From assembly GCF_000015205.1 (NCBI RefSeq), contig NC_008701.1:1-64000 (forward strand): a stretch of 64,000 nucleotides of DNA. Direction: 5' to 3'. A model generated the notes under the pieces. The model had not been told where the DNA came from. It worked only from the letters and a program-made list of their open reading frames with translations, and ran no database searches. Shown one piece after another: positions 34 through 39,903 of this stretch; position 1 is the first letter of the stretch; the number at the start of each line of letters is the position of its first letter. This stretch comes from Pyrobaculum islandicum DSM 4184. Lineage in GTDB: Archaea; Thermoproteota; Thermoprotei; Thermoproteales; Thermoproteaceae. The position numbers were made by a program, and so were the translations under genes.

Positions 34-1216
34 ATTCTTACTATCTTTTGATTTCTGGCCGTCGCACATCGAGACCGCCCTCCTTGACGTCATGAGAGTG
101 GCGTTTCTACTATCTTTTGATTTCTGGTTCCATGTTCTGTTGCCGTGTGAGATTCCAGCATCACAGCTGAGGTTTCTACTATCTTTTGATTTCTGGCGGC
201 GGGAAGTCCGCTGTCGAATTGCTGACCGGGGAATATGGTTTCTACTATCTTTTGATTTCTGGCGGCGGGAAGTCCGCTGTCGAATTGCTGACCGGGGAAT
301 ATGGTTTCTACTATCTTTTGATTTCTGGACCTCGTTAGTAAAGCAACGAAGAAAATGGCACAATAGAACCTATGTTTCTACTATCTTTTGATTTCTGGAC
401 GATTGTGTTTAACCCGGCGCCGTATCCAACAGAGCACATATGGTTTCTACTATCTTTTGATTTCTGGTTTAGGGTCGGTAGCGGAGCGGAGACGGGCGAC
501 GGCGATCAAGGTTTCTACTATCTTTTGATTTCTGGGTACCCGTGGGCAAGCGAATATTGGGCTATGGGGCTGTATAGAGTTTCTACCATCTTTTGATTTC
601 TGGCAAGAACTCCGCGGCAAATATGTAAAGTTGCATATCATTGATCTGTTTCTACTATCTTTTGATTTCTGGTCACACTGTCTGTGGTGAGAGTACTTTA
701 AGCCCCCCAATAGTTTCTACATATCTTTTGATTTCTGGGCCCTCAGGGCGGTTTCGGCGTCCATCATGGCGACCAGCTCGTCGTTTCTACTATCTTTTGA
801 TTTCTGGCTCTCTGCAGAGGACAGACCAAGGCTTGTCGCTCCAGATGCAACGTTTCTACTATCTTTTGATTTCTGGTTCGTGCGGACGCCGTGTAGCTTC
901 CTCGCGAGCGAGAAGTTTGTGTTTCTACTATCTTTTGATTTCTGGATGCTAAGGCGGGCGCCAGGTTTGCGGCCGGCGGCACCGTGGAGGTTTCTACTAT
1001 CTTTTGATTTCTGGCCTTAACCACGTGGCCCACGATGTCAGTCCCGATAATGTTGGTTTCTACTATCTTTTGATTTCTGGCGTGGCGGCCCTCCTCAGGG
1101 CCCTCCGCCATGAGATAGACATGTTTCTACTATCTTTTGATTTCTGGAAGAAGCGCGACGTCTGGCACAGATAGACGAGATAATACACTCAGTTTCTACT
1201 ATCTTTTGATTTCTGG
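34..1216 (-). CRISPR. CRISPR array 1 (18 repeats, 17 spacers)
   Basis: Eighteen copies of a 25-nt repeat, written on the + strand as GTTTCTAC...ATTTCTGG, start at 34, 103, 172, 238, 304, 374, 443, 511, 579, 648, 713, 783, 852, 921, 990, 1056, 1123 and 1192, with spacers of about 38-45 nt. In the likely transcribed sense the repeat ends GTAGAAAC, resembling the 8-nt crRNA 5' handle of archaeal type I/III systems, so the array should be transcribed leftward from the leader at 1217. The leftmost copy (34-58) has three mismatches, as expected at a trailer end. The copy at 579 has one substitution and the copy at 713 carries one extra A (26 nt). Two adjacent units (198-303) hold the same spacer. 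No cas gene is nearby. Confidence 0.97.
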
Positions 1217-1491
1217 GGCTTGTGTTTTTGGATCTTTTGGGTTTTTAAGTTTTTTCGTGGTTTTTTGTCTGGCCGGCGGTCGCTTTCCAACCCCTCTTTA
1301 CATTCATACATTCCTCTGTCTGAGAGACGGCGTACGCCATTCTTCGCCTTTACCATCATACACGCGCCTTAGAGATGGCGGAGACCCAGCGCCATTCTTC
1401 GCGTTTGGCTGTCTAGCCCCTTGTCTAAAGTATATTGTGTCCTTTACCGACATATATTGGAATGTTTTAATGCTTGTGGGATATCGTGGGC
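1217..1491 (-). promoter_or_regulatory. CRISPR leader 1
   Basis: Non-coding stretch between the last repeat of array 1 and the divergent gene at 1492. It is rich in T/A runs near the repeat. Reading toward the array, a TATA-like CTTAAAAA (1242-1249) lies about 25 nt before the first repeat, placing the crRNA precursor start at about 1220. Two copies of a motif like AGGCGAAGAATGGCG (1334-1349 and 1389-1404) lie 55 bp apart. A second TATA-like element (TTTTAA, 1465-1470) serves the opposite-strand gene at 1492. The whole block recurs, inverted, at 38592-38865 with long conserved stretches, which is why it is called a leader. Confidence 0.85.
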
Positions 1492-1857
1492 ATGTATCTC
1501 TACTTTGGCCGTATGAAGATAGGCCCTCTCGTGGGGTACCTCTGGCTTTTGGGCAGGCGGCTGTACCTCAAGCTGGGCTGGCGCCCTCGGGACACTGTCT
1601 ATCTCGGCTCTGTGGACGACCTTCTTGGCGTCGCCGTGAGGGTGAGGAGGCTCGTCCCGAGGCCTCTGCCCGTTAGGCAACTCGTCGCTGCGCTGGTGGA
1701 CGCCCTCAAAAAGGCCTACTACGTCGCCAGCCGGTGCCGGGACTCGCCGCGTTGGAAGATACGCGCCTGGGAGGCGGCAATGGCCATCGAATACGCCGCC
1801 TCTGCGCTGGCGATGTACTGGCCAAGCGCCGCCAAAAAGATACTAGACGACGGCTAG
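1492..1857 (+). CDS. CRISPR-leader-linked hypothetical protein, copy 1
   Basis: A 121-residue protein of unknown function. I chose ATG 1492 because the paralogue at 38226-38591 begins at the same place (GTG) and a TATA-like element lies about 25 nt upstream in both copies, indicating a leaderless mRNA. A TTG at 1474 is possible but its codons are not conserved. The protein is basic (many R and K in the first 60 residues) with a helical-looking alanine-rich C-terminus. I see no nuclease motif, zinc cluster or membrane segment. It is transcribed away from the array, with the leader between. The duplicate differs at only a few residues (for example Q/H and K/R), so both copies look maintained. 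Confidence 0.75.
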   Translation: MYLYFGRMKIGPLVGYLWLLGRRLYLKLGWRPRDTVYLGSVDDLLGVAVRVRRLVPRPLPVRQLVAALVDALKKAYYVASRCRDSPRWKIRAWEAAMAIEYAASALAMYWPSAAKKILDDG

Positions 1858-4828: not shown

Positions 4829-6109
4829 TCATGAGTAAAAAGTAGTTACGAGATTAAAAGTGTGATGGTTCGGAGTGGGGAAAGTGGGTTGTTTTGTCTT
4901 CTCTATCAGCTCTTGATACTTCTTCTCTGCCCATATCATGGGGACGTTGTCTCTATGTGCCCCGAAACCGCAAGAGGGACAATGCATTCGCCTGTTCCTC
5001 AGCTCCTCCATCTTCGCACCGCACTTCGGACAGATGGTTGAATACAGCCGTTCCTCCACATACGGCAGTCCGTACCACTGCGCGAGCGCTTGCAAACGTC
5101 TCCTCAACTGCCCAAGCCCGTCTAGGAAGTGCTTCTTCACGCCGTTTCCGCCCCTCTCCTTCAACTCCCGGTAGGTGTCGTCCTCCACTGCGTCAACTAC
5201 GACGGCGGCTTGGTGCTCCCTCGCAAGCTTTATGATCTCGCGGGCGGCGTTTATAACGACGTCGCGGATTACGCCGTAGCGCTTTGTCTCAAGTTTCCAC
5301 AGTTGTCTCTGGATGTCCAACGCTCTACGCGGATCCCTGTCTTCATCTACACGTGCAAGAGCTCTGCTTAATTGACTTATGTGGGCGTGGATCTTCTCAA
5401 GCTTCCGTATCCGCTCTTTCTTGGGGAACTTCAATAGCTCCACGACACGACCGTCGGCCACGAGACCAACCTTTACGTAGTGGTCTAGGCGGTTGACGTC
5501 AACAACGACAAGCGCCTTGGGCTCCACCGGCGCCACCTCTCTAGCGAAGACTAGGGCGATGTACAAGCCGCCGTAAGTAGGATCCTTGCCCCTCCTTACG
5601 TCAACGCCCAAATATGCCAACTTGAGTTTGGCGCCTTCCTGTAGTCTCTCTCTTATCCAAGAGATGCTGCCCTTCTTCAACTCGACGGCAAAAGGCGGTA
5701 TGCCCAACTTCCGCACTCTGAGAACGCCGCTCTTTAGGTCGACGAAGACTGCCCTACTCATATCTTTCTCGTTTTCAACCCTAAGTTGGGTGCTCAACGG
5801 AATTGCCTGTTGAAACACTGTATCGTGCCAGAGGAACTTGGCATATCTCACAAGAGCTCTCCCAAGCCCGTATTTGGGGAATATCTCCTCGATAATCCGG
5901 TGCGCCAACTCCCGCCTGTCTGGCGTGAGGTGTCTGTCCAACTCCTCCGCCGTGAGTCTGGGCTCCTCTTGCCCCGTCAACTCTTTCAACAGTCTTTTGA
6001 CGTACTCCTCTGCCGCCAAGTGCATTCTTGTCACAAGGTCAAGGACGTCCGGCCGCTCTTCGATGAGTTTCCAGGGGATTTCCACCTTCAGTGTTCTGTA
6101 TGCGTACAT
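4829..6109 (-). CDS. tnpB: TnpB/OrfB-type RNA-guided nuclease (IS605/IS1341-like)
   Basis: A 426-residue TnpB-like protein. The split RuvC nuclease residues are visible: Asp in VVVDVNRLDHY, Glu in VVVDAVEDDTY and Asp in GAHRDNVPMIW. A four-Cys zinc ribbon (CPKCGAK...CPSCGFG) lies before the last Asp, as in the family. I chose ATG 6109 because the upstream extension of the frame is arginine-rich and non-homologous and a TATA box lies at 6145-6152. All catalytic positions are intact, so it may be active. There is no tnpA transposase next to it, so it is a solo IS1341-type copy. Its insertion ends could not be defined. Confidence 0.9.
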   Translation of the reverse strand: MYAYRTLKVEIPWKLIEERPDVLDLVTRMHLAAEEYVKRLLKELTGQEEPRLTAEELDRHLTPDRRELAHRIIEEIFPKYGLGRALVRYAKFLWHDTVFQQAIPLSTQLRVENEKDMSRAVFVDLKSGVLRVRKLGIPPFAVELKKGSISWIRERLQEGAKLKLAYLGVDVRRGKDPTYGGLYIALVFAREVAPVEPKALVVVDVNRLDHYVKVGLVADGRVVELLKFPKKERIRKLEKIHAHISQLSRALARVDEDRDPRRALDIQRQLWKLETKRYGVIRDVVINAAREIIKLAREHQAAVVVDAVEDDTYRELKERGGNGVKKHFLDGLGQLRRRLQALAQWYGLPYVEERLYSTICPKCGAKMEELRNRRMHCPSCGFGAHRDNVPMIWAEKKYQELIEKTKQPTFPTPNHHTFNLVTTFYS

Positions 6110-6215
6110 GGCCTTGTATGTGGTGGGGCTGAAATCTCTGTTGGTTATAAAAGGCGCATGGGGGCAAGCCGGAAGTTTTACAAGACAAACCCACGGCGTT
6201 GTGCCCCGCCTCTCC

Positions 6216-6419
6216 TCAGAGCCTGCGAAACACCGACCCCCCGCCCTTCTTCCCCGGCGTTGAGAGACGCGTGCCGGCCATGTTGCTAATCTTCGCCGCC
6301 ACAAGAGCAATCGTTGTCATAAGCAACGTGTTGACACCCGCCGGCGTTATACGCCGCTGTTGCCGCCCCCAAGTCCAATTCATACCGGCGATACCCACCG
6401 CCGTACCGACGGCGCTCAC
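6216..6419 (-). CDS. Small membrane protein (hypothetical)
   Basis: A 67-residue ORF with two hydrophobic stretches separated by a basic loop (WGRQQRRITP) and a basic C-terminus. I chose GTG 6419 because a TATA-like GTTAAAAAAC lies about 25 nt upstream (near 6442-6450). The open frame continues to 6506 without a better signal. It lies directly upstream of tnpB in the same direction. The two-helix hairpin form resembles small channel-like or pilin-like proteins, but no family is recognised. Confidence 0.45.
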   Translation of the reverse strand: MSAVGTAVGIAGMNWTWGRQQRRITPAGVNTLLMTTIALVAAKISNMAGTRLSTPGKKGGGSVFRRL

Positions 6420-37218: not shown

Positions 37219-38229
37219 ATGAAATTCCCAACTGTCAGACCCCGCCGCCTCAGGACAAACAAAATCATTAGAGACGCCGTTGCCGAAACTGCCCTCGACC
37301 CCAGCGACTTCATCTACCCCATCTTCGTCAAGGAGGGCCCCGGCCGAGAGGCCATACCCACCATGCCCGGCCAACACCGGTGGCCCGTCGGCGAGGAGCT
37401 AATTAAACACGTAGAGGAGGCCCTCGCCCTAGGAGTCAACAAGTTCATCCTATTCGGCGTGGTGCCAGAGGAGCAGAAAGACCCCCACGGCTCCAGGGGC
37501 TACGACCCAGAGGGCCCCGTCCCCAAGGCCCTCCGCCTCCTAAAAGAGACCTTCGGCGACAAGATACTCCTCTTCGCAGACGTCTGCCTCTGCGAATACA
37601 CAGACCACGGACACTGCGGCGTGGTAAAGACCACCGGCGGCAGGTGGCACATTGACAACGACGAAACTATAAAGCTATACGCCAAGGAGGCCCTCGTGTA
37701 CGCAGACGCCGGCGCTGACTTCGTCGCCCCAAGCGGCATGATGGACGGCCAAGTGGCCGAGATCAGAAAAGCCCTAGACGCCCACGGCTTCCACCACGTG
37801 GGCATCATGGCATACAGCGCCAAATACGCCTCAGCCTTCTACGGCCCCTTCCGCACAGCCGCCGCCTCAGCCCCCAAATTCGGCGACAGGAGGACATACC
37901 AGATGGACCCCAGAAACGCCCACGAAGCCCTCAAAGAAGTCGCCATGGATCTGGAGGAGGGCGCAGACATAGTCATGGTAAAGCCAGCCCTCGCATACCT
38001 AGACGTAATCCGCCTAGTAAAACAGCACTACCCCTGGGCCCCCCTAGCCGCCTACAACGTCTCCGGAGAATACGCCATGGTAAAAGCCGCCGCAGCCGCC
38101 GGATATATAGACGAGAGGGTCGTCACACTAGAAATCCTAACCGCAATAAAAAGAGCAGGCGCAGACCTAATCCTCACCTACCACGCCCCAGAAGCCGCAA
38201 AATGGCTAAAAGACGGCACCCCATTCTAG
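37219..38229 (+). CDS. hemB: Porphobilinogen synthase (delta-aminolevulinate dehydratase)
   Basis: A 336-residue HemB. It condenses two 5-aminolevulinate molecules to porphobilinogen. The zinc cysteines are in DVCLCEYTDHGHCG, and the two Schiff-base lysines in YSAKYASAFYGPF and MVKPAL. ATG 37219 is chosen because a TATA-like GATATAAG sits about 25 nt upstream. Its stop overlaps the stop of the leader-linked gene at 38226 by three bases, so the inverted repeat starts exactly at the HemB end. HemC and AhbC-like genes lie 6-8 kb to the right. Confidence 0.95.
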   Translation: MKFPTVRPRRLRTNKIIRDAVAETALDPSDFIYPIFVKEGPGREAIPTMPGQHRWPVGEELIKHVEEALALGVNKFILFGVVPEEQKDPHGSRGYDPEGPVPKALRLLKETFGDKILLFADVCLCEYTDHGHCGVVKTTGGRWHIDNDETIKLYAKEALVYADAGADFVAPSGMMDGQVAEIRKALDAHGFHHVGIMAYSAKYASAFYGPFRTAAASAPKFGDRRTYQMDPRNAHEALKEVAMDLEEGADIVMVKPALAYLDVIRLVKQHYPWAPLAAYNVSGEYAMVKAAAAAGYIDERVVTLEILTAIKRAGADLILTYHAPEAAKWLKDGTPF

Positions 38230-38591
38230 CCGTCGTCTAGTATTTTCTTCGCCGCGCTTGGCCAGTACATGGCGAGGGCGGAGGCGGCGTATTCTATGGC
38301 CATTGCCGCCTCCCAGGCGCGTATCTTCCAACGCGGCGAGTCGCGGCAGCGGCTGGCGACGTAGTAGGCCTTCCTGAGGGCGTCCACCAGCGCAGCCACG
38401 AGGTGCCTTACGGGCAGGGGCCTCGGGACGAGCCTCCTAACCCTCACGGCGACGCCAAGAAGATCGTCCACACTGCCGAGGTATACCGTATCACGCGGAC
38501 GCCACCCCAACTTCAGATAAAGCCGACGGCCCAAAAGCCACAGGTACCCAACGAGAGGGCCTATCTTCATACGGCCAAAGTAGAGATACAC
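38226..38591 (-). CDS. CRISPR-leader-linked hypothetical protein, copy 2
   Basis: The 121-residue paralogue of the gene at 1492-1857, starting at GTG 38591, with the same TATA distance. Nearly the whole sequence matches, including the tail WPSAAKKILDDG and its stop codon. It shares its stop with hemB. Conservation of the reading frame in both copies argues that the protein is used. Its only constant neighbour is the CRISPR leader. Confidence 0.75.
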   Translation of the reverse strand: MYLYFGRMKIGPLVGYLWLLGRRLYLKLGWRPRDTVYLGSVDDLLGVAVRVRRLVPRPLPVRHLVAALVDALRKAYYVASRCRDSPRWKIRAWEAAMAIEYAASALAMYWPSAAKKILDDG

Positions 38592-38865
38592 ACCAGCCAC
38601 AAAACCCACACATTAAAACATTCCCATATATGTCGGTAAAGGACACAATAGACATTTGGAAAACGGTTGTGAGGGTAGAGGCGAAGAACGGCGCTGGGTT
38701 CTCCCTTCGGCTAGGCGTAGTTACGATCGTAAAGGCGAAGAACGGCGCACGCCGTCTCTCAGACAGGAGAATATATGAATGTAAAGGGCGGTGGAAAAGC
38801 GACCCCCGGACAAACAAAAAACCACGAAAAAACTTAAAAACCCAAAAGATCCACACAAACAAGCC
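38592..38865 (+). promoter_or_regulatory. CRISPR leader 2
   Basis: Non-coding A-rich stretch before array 2. The TATA-like CTTAAAAA (38833-38840) lies about 25 nt before the first repeat. Two exact copies of AGGCGAAGAACGGCGC (38679-38694 and 38733-38748) are 54 bp apart, about five helical turns, and match the two motifs in leader 1. Opposite-strand promoter elements for the small gene lie near 38610-38620. Confidence 0.85.
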
Positions 38866-39903
38866 CCAGAAATCAAAAGATAGTAGAAAGCTCCTGCTCG
38901 GATGCAGAAGGGACTCGGACGGGCGTGTCGTCTCCAGAAATCAAAAGATAGTAGAAAGTATGCTCCGGGCTAGACGGCCTCCCCGAGCCCGTGCGGGCGA
39001 GCCAGAAATCAAAAGATAGTAGAAAGTCGCGGTAGCACTGGACGACTGTGTCCCACCCACGCTCCTCAGCCAGAAATCAAAAGATAGTAGAAAGCAATCG
39101 CGTCCATAACCGCCCGCCAGTCCTCGTCGCACCCAGAAATCAAAAGATAGTAGAAACGCCGCCATCGCGATAGCGTACTACGCAGGCGTCAAGAGGGGCG
39201 CCAGAAATCAAAAGATAGTAGAAACATAAACAGACGCCGCCCTTCTGGTGGCTCCCCGTCGACCTCTGGCCAGAAATCAAAAGATAGTAGAAACTCTGTA
39301 ATCAACTCCTCCAGACCATACCTCCTCAGCAATCTGTAGCCAGAAATCAAAAGATAGTAGAAACTACGTCTCGTGGAGCGGGGCGAAGCTAGGCACATAC
39401 GTCGTCACCAGAAATCAAAAGATAGTAGAAACCTCCAACAGGTGGGGAGGTGGGAGAGGGACATGAACAACCAGAAATCAAAAGATAGTAGAAACTTAAT
39501 ATAGAGAACTCCCCTGTCCACAGGGGCGAAACGTTTATTCCAGAAATCAAAAGATAGTAGAAACGCAAACGTAGTGAAGACCGCGGTCATCGGGAATGGC
39601 GGTCATGCTTGCGCTCCAGAAATCAAAAGATAGTAGAAACCCTCTTCTAGCTCTCTGTCTAGGTCTTGAAGAAATTCGGCCCAGAAATCAAAAGATAGTA
39701 GAAATGCCCACTCCATAGACCATATCAGTTGTCTTTCCGCCATTATCTGCCAGAAATCAAAAGATAGTAGAAACGGGGCGTCTGAGACGTCTATCACGAC
39801 GGGGACAGACGTAATGTCCAGAAATCAAAAGATAGTAGAAACATGTATATGCATAGGAGGTGCGCTTCAAGGAGTTTTTCCCTAAACGCCCAGAAATCTA
39901 AAG
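38866..39903 (+). CRISPR. CRISPR array 2 (15 full repeats, 15 spacers)
   Basis: The same 25-nt repeat as array 1, here reading CCAGAAATC...GTAGAAAC on the + strand, starting at 38866, 38934, 39002, 39070, 39133, 39201, 39270, 39340, 39408, 39471, 39540, 39616, 39681, 39750 and 39818, with a decayed copy at 39890-39903. The first four repeats next to the leader end in AAAG instead of AAAC. The repeat at 39681 ends in T. The 3' copy keeps only about 14 nt, marking the trailer. Transcription should run rightward from leader 2. No spacer is shared with array 1 by eye. Confidence 0.97.

Follow-up and report, generated by a model that had tools for sequence, protein, structure and literature searches.

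X, a conserved and so far unnamed CRISPR-linked gene family of the Thermoproteaceae with a possible role at array leaders

Beside the leader of each of the two CRISPR arrays in the window considered here (the whole stretch of DNA that was analysed, namely the first 64,000 nucleotides of contig NC_008701.1 of Pyrobaculum islandicum DSM 4184), a small gene pointing away from the array encodes a basic protein of 121 residues, referred to below as X. The locus raises the question of whether such a gene takes part in the CRISPR system or is merely carried along with the leader. X is a real, conserved and so far unnamed CRISPR-linked gene family of the Thermoproteaceae; no description of it was found in the openly accessible literature. 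The relevant features of the window are as follows.

34–1216, minus strand: CRISPR array 1, with the repeat CCAGAAATCAAAAGATAGTAGAAAC; same coordinates as P. islandicum crispr1 in PMC3396285
1242–1254, minus strand: promoter-like leader element AAAAACTTAAAAA of array 1, an element described in PMC3396285
1335–1402, minus strand: twin boxes GCGAAGAATGGCG in the array 1 leader, with starts 55 bp apart
1465–1472, plus strand: putative TATA-like element TTTTAATG of X, shared by the copies of P. islandicum and of P. neutrophilum, from sequence comparison
1492–1857, plus strand: X gene copy 1, basic protein of 121 residues, divergent from the array 1 leader; from the ORF and the family alignment
38226–38591, minus strand: X gene copy 2, 121 residues, GTG start, 98% identical to copy 1
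38681–38747, plus strand: twin leader boxes GCGAAGAACGGCG in the leader of array 2, 54 bp start to start
38828–38840, plus strand: promoter-like leader element AAAAACTTAAAAA of array 2, from sequence comparison with other leaders
38866–39895, plus strand: CRISPR array 2, equivalent to crispr2 in PMC3396285

The array coordinates agree with those published for P. islandicum in the genus CRISPR paper (PMC3396285), which comprise crispr1 at 34–1216, crispr2 at 38866–39842 and additionally crispr3–5. The four leader-proximal repeats of array 2 (window 38866–39100) end in GAAAG, not GAAAC, and are accompanied by differing spacers; the variant has been copied over several successive acquisitions, so that array 2 has grown since that mutation occurred. 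In array 1, one spacer–repeat unit is present twice in tandem (window 171–302, 66 bp identical), and an ORF with what appears to be a TnpB/OrfB-like zinc-ribbon motif (CPKCG...CPSCG) is located near this array at 4829–6310 on the minus strand.

Copy 1 of X starts with ATG and comprises 121 codons and a TAG stop, and the stop of copy 2 overlaps by 4 bp the 3' end of a convergent hemB-like gene. A six-frame search of the P. islandicum genome returned four intact copies (at 1492, 38229, 1403395 and 1759731) with 92–100% identity, as well as one remnant away from the CRISPR loci at 395697. Each of the four intact copies has its start some 275 bp from the first repeat and is read away from the array, and the fifth leader (1414014) retains the X promoter and the first X codons before the sequences diverge, so that it carries a truncated X. 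Since only about 0.8% of the genome is located within 1 kb of any array, this linkage to leaders is far from chance. The original prediction of a 121-residue ORF divergent from the leader at both arrays is therefore confirmed and is joined by two more intact leader-linked copies; the protein is basic, as had been claimed, with a pI of 10.2–10.3 here and 10.2–11.5 across the family, which is compatible with the putative binding of leader DNA. Likewise, a conserved stop with differing flanks had been proposed, and the homology between copies 1 and 2 indeed runs up to the stop codon and ends there. The start context, which had also been described as conserved, is so only in part: the TATA-like element TTTTAATG and the sequence above it are shared, whereas the last 20 nucleotides are not, and copy 1 begins with ATG but copy 2 with GTG.

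Relatives of X were found in 11 of 19 Thermoproteaceae genomes in a family-level search, and the 17 uninterrupted copies, from eight genomes, have 28 invariant positions in common. These copies are tied to one class of array, termed alpha in this analysis, which has 25-nt repeats and twin-box leaders and is served by csa1–cas1–cas2–cas4. All 17 intact genes are located at alpha CRISPR loci, several of them in or adjoining the csa1–cas1–cas2–cas4 operon, whereas none of the five off-locus copies is intact (G000:395697, G001:861483, G004:1512070, G006:1904009 and G015:244061). A Fisher test of 17 intact and four broken on-locus copies against zero intact and five broken off-locus copies, which left out an X, interrupted near residue 92, on a metagenome-assembled (MAG) contig, gave p = 0.002, a value that is only a guide because related copies are not fully independent. 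A search for homologues next to leaders, the check put forward with the original prediction, placed every intact copy in the searched genomes at CRISPR loci of a single class; linkage to arrays or cas operons is far above chance, as expected of a Cas accessory gene, and the off-locus copies are all remnants.

The association was also examined from the side of the leaders, which were collected as AAAAACTTAAAAA followed by an alpha-type repeat. In this pattern-based count of 30 alpha leaders in Thermoproteaceae genomes, which may be incomplete, 16 have a divergent X alongside (13 intact, one truncated and two frameshifted), and for another ten X is located in or beside the csa1–cas1–cas2–cas4 operon or at the far end of the array (WP30 and G007). 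The remaining four have no visible X (one leader in P. calidifontis, one in P. oguniense, that of G014 and that of G012, the contig of which ends inside csa1). X is not indispensable, because some related leaders and one neighbour species are without a working copy.

No convincing X was found outside the Thermoproteaceae among 81 genomes in a class-level search, and a phylum sample of 397 genomes gave a single outside match, on a 3.85 kb MAG contig assigned to another class (G254, L153 1–3850). This contig, an independent instance of the linkage, carries an X fragment akin to that of P. aerophilum beside a twin-box leader and an array of the Pyrobaculum type; its assignment to that class is probably due to a binning error. 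A viral origin was rejected, as no relative of X was present among IMG/VR contigs.

The coding sequence of X is under purifying selection, as expected of a Cas accessory gene. Pairwise comparison of the P. islandicum copies by the NG86 method gave dN values of 0.02–0.05 and dS values of 0.29–0.47, with dN/dS of about 0.05–0.16, so that the dN/dS check suggested with the original prediction came out in favour of a maintained gene; broken copies are a minority (five at CRISPR loci and five off-locus). Among eight P. islandicum and P. neutrophilum copies, 819 of 1062 differences fall at third codon positions. Furthermore, the recent changes private to one P. islandicum copy comprise 17 synonymous and four non-synonymous substitutions, where neutrality predicts 25% synonymous (p = 1.4e-7); selection on X therefore continued in the lineage of P. 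islandicum. The proposal of an undescribed accessory gene tied to leaders is supported, and neither a scatter of homologues without a link to CRISPR nor neutral evolution with stops in most strains was seen.

Most of the divergence between the paralogues appears to be older than the split of P. islandicum and P. neutrophilum, because the hemB-like neighbour, the one gene compared, has a dS of only 0.17 between these species. This gene adjoins copy 2 in P. islandicum, and in P. neutrophilum it is found about 1.3 kb away from copy N4, a common neighbour which suggests that the solitary locus of copy 2 and N4 predates both species. Copies N3 and N4 are identical but for two sites, and copies A1 and A2 but for 10 of 366; copies within one genome therefore exchange sequence.

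The position of X in other species connects it to spacer acquisition. In P. aerophilum and in genome G003, which we take to be P. ferrireducens (hereafter probable P. ferrireducens), the genes are arranged in the order csa1–cas1–cas2–cas4–X, with X in last place (families TIGR01896 for Csa1, TIGR00287 for Cas1, TIGR01573 for Cas2 and TIGR00372 for Cas4). The order is the same in P. oguniense, but cas4 and X are both broken there (L048 9191–9715 and 9700–12042): three in-frame stops disrupt cas4, and the reading frame of X is interrupted after about 65 codons, while csa1, cas1 and cas2 are still open. In all three species X begins within the 3' end of cas4, its ATG preceding the end of the cas4 stop codon by 15 bp. 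The roughly 2 kb that interrupt the P. oguniense X include an ORF of 298 residues, presumably resembling manganese catalase. In P. neutrophilum, X has a leader on one side and on the other the 3' end of cas4, to which it is convergent; in G018, which belongs to another genus, X accompanies the leader of the array that directly follows cas4. The gene table of PMC3396285 has no entry between PAE0077 and PAE0079 of P. aerophilum.

X tracks the alpha clade of Cas1 and its repeats and is absent from the beta and gamma adaptation modules of the same genomes, the Cas1 proteins of which are about 38–45% identical and which have other repeats. It is kept without an intact alpha Cas1 in WP30, G007 and P. 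calidifontis, where a beta Cas1 is present. The alpha loci of Pyrobaculum also hold a Csa3-like CARF gene, although its profile match is below the cut-off.

That X is retained in its own right is indicated most strongly by deletions that spared it. The solitary leaders L041 and L043 of probable P. ferrireducens agree with the csa1 leader up to and including the csa1 promoter and the first csa1 codons, beyond which a short linker and the last bases of cas4 are followed by an intact X; the resulting short frame of csa1', linker and cas4' stops at the same stop codon that overlaps the X start. WP30 has a different junction, with a csa1' frame of 43 codons that ends a few bases before X, which is intact here too. 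Thus csa1, cas1, cas2 and cas4 were deleted at least two times while X and a promoter were kept. Operon structure, clade specificity and this selective retention support the assignment of X to one class of type I-A-like adaptation module.

Searches with X and with its alignment gave no significant match in Pfam, NCBIfam, PADLOC, PHROGs or PDB sequences, the sole NCBIfam match being ribosomal L1 at E = 0.07; the earlier remark that no matching Cas family was known has stood up against Pfam, NCBIfam and PADLOC. An AlphaFold model, for which an alignment of five sequences was the input, shows four strands and then four helices (pLDDT 80, pTM 0.71), and Foldseek returned no match at E below 0.001 (best E of 1.4 in the PDB and 0.2 in a viral structure library). 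Several known classes were considered and set aside, including Csa3-type CARF–HTH regulators (no profile match for CARF or wHTH) and IHF/HU-like leader-bending factors (no Pfam match and no significant fold match). The paREP families are numerous in Pyrobaculum, but X has no PaREP1 Pfam match.

In our judgement there is about an even chance that X is a leader-acting accessory protein of the alpha adaptation module. A small basic protein, with its predicted four strands and subsequent helices, would bind leader DNA or, alternatively, an assembly of Csa1/Cas4–Cas1–Cas2 (and Csa3) bound to the leader, and would thereby help to direct or license spacer integration at the leader–repeat junction; with a copy kept at each solitary array, its supply or its control would be local. 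An adaptation role is favoured because X is part of the csa1–cas1–cas2–cas4 operon, and the joint loss of cas4 and X in P. oguniense, together with the frameshifted X and broken Cas1 of Thermoproteus tenax, counts on the same side. Against it stand the four intact copies in P. islandicum, which lacks Cas1, the retention of X without an intact alpha Cas1 in WP30, G007 and P. calidifontis, the alpha leaders without X and the lack of any match that suggests an activity.

These two species without a working Cas1 point in opposite directions. No Cas1 was detected in the P. islandicum genome, and PMC3396285 gives the organism a lone type III-A module without cas1 or cas2, an annotation from which cas2 and cas4 are missing, and crRNA from all five arrays. 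If X served Cas1–Cas2 only, it should decay; as four intact copies remain, either the loss of cas1 is recent or X also acts in another way, which could be leader transcription or array upkeep. In T. tenax, the sole Cas1 gene is interrupted and both copies of X are frameshifted (L037 9123–9475 and L038 9479–9807), by different deletions of about 10 and 16 bp, as judged by eye, in one stretch of short repeats. A programmed frameshift was rejected, as the two copies carry different deletions. The genome paper of T. tenax describes 'type II cluster leaders' of 613–624 bp (PMC3189178), a length that would accommodate the X pseudogene in addition to a leader of about 275 bp; the pseudogene was therefore probably counted as leader DNA, X not having been recognized as a gene there. 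P. islandicum (X without Cas1), P. oguniense (broken cas4 and X) and T. tenax (two broken copies of X) are natural comparisons for the role of X.

The main rival explanation, which we hold to be possible if somewhat unlikely, is that X works at the leader as a transcription factor or architectural protein, namely an autoregulated, divergent repressor or activator of pre-crRNA (and of the csa1 operon where present) that is needed for array expression or maintenance and not for spacer integration. It owes its standing to P. islandicum, where X remains under selection without Cas1 while all five arrays make crRNA, according to PMC3396285, and X and the leader diverge over a common control region of about 270 bp, as is typical of autoregulation. 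A regulator would, however, less usually be the last gene of a csa1–cas4 operon, and no HTH or RHH family was recognized in X by profile searches.

The structure of the leaders bears on this rival in both directions. Two copies of GCGAAGAAYGGCG or close variants are located upstream of TATATGAATGTAAAG and the promoter-like element in all alpha leaders examined, and an exact search returned 21 twin-box pairs in Thermoproteaceae genomes against none with a reversed control, the inspected pairs all being in alpha leaders. The twin box does not appear in the accessible part of the genus CRISPR paper (PMC3396285). Its spacing, start to start, is 53–55 bp in most leaders; P. calidifontis and G018 have 43–44 bp, and a single T. 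tenax leader, the X of which is broken, has 48 bp. The main spacing classes differ by about one helical turn, which suggests protein binding on one face of the DNA, and the twin box is likely, from its sequence pattern, to be a protein-binding site. The near-constant spacing looks like the cooperative binding that a transcription factor would show. However, the gene diverging from a twin-box leader may be X, csa1, csa3 or cas6, and the protein that binds them therefore need not be X; they are also kept in genomes without an intact X (P. oguniense and G014), so that X is not required for the boxes. X as the twin-box binder is accordingly possible but not favoured, since the boxes persist where X has been lost.

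We regard it as unlikely that X is a passenger of a recombining leader segment, homogenized by gene conversion, with a non-CRISPR or selfish function. Leader and X do recombine as a block, with homology ending at the stop codon and N3 and N4 nearly identical, and the T. tenax X is 90% identical to that of P. islandicum whereas the hemB-like gene is only 66% identical at the DNA level. Against this, X is under strong purifying selection, copies away from CRISPR loci have decayed, other species have X in the adaptation operon with no leader directly beside it, and two deletions spared exactly X. More doubtful still is a cofactor of Cas4 that takes part in prespacer capture or processing and not in events at the leader: X overlaps cas4, and P. 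oguniense has lost both while csa1, cas1 and cas2 are open, but X, unlike cas4, has been duplicated to solitary leaders and is still present in P. islandicum, a genome in which no Cas1 was detected and for which PMC3396285 annotates neither cas2 nor cas4.

Bernick et al. reportedly raised the alternative of Cas1-independent spacer uptake, and a reading in which, as one part, X serves such an uptake by an unknown route in P. islandicum is very improbable. Returning to the accessory role at the leader, X is well suited as a candidate for a component still missing from the formation of CRISPR memory or from the control of arrays. Being found both in the adaptation operon and at solitary leaders, it is a direct candidate for a factor in the delivery of spacers to the leader end in archaeal type I-A systems.

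In type I-E and I-F adaptation, IHF directs Cas1–Cas2 to the leader–repeat junction. Integration in the type I-A system of Sulfolobus solfataricus needs a long leader and unidentified host factors, Cas1–Cas2 alone not being specific (PMC5815122). X may have a comparable task, namely directing Cas1–Cas2 to this junction, but it is no homologue of IHF/HU. In Sulfolobus type I-A this task falls to Csa3a as well as to the host factors. The Csa3a of Sulfolobus islandicus, an accessory factor, recognizes a leader-distal motif (−143 to −94) and modulates Cas1, with which it acts (PMC9456107). Like Csa3a, X is a non-integrase that is encoded by csa1 or leaders and is proposed to act at the leader; unlike Csa3a, it has neither CARF nor a recognizable wHTH, is half the size and is unrelated in sequence. 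The nurA–csm6–herA cluster, proposed to be CRISPR-specific in Pyrobaculum in PMC3396285, resembles X in being genus-specific, CRISPR-linked and proposed for adaptation, but X is an unrelated gene at other loci and is absent from the gene table of that paper. Compared with the type I-A adaptation module itself, X differs in matching no Cas family model and in also occurring alone at leaders, whereas within the csa1–cas1–cas2–cas4 module of Pyrobaculum it is the fifth gene.
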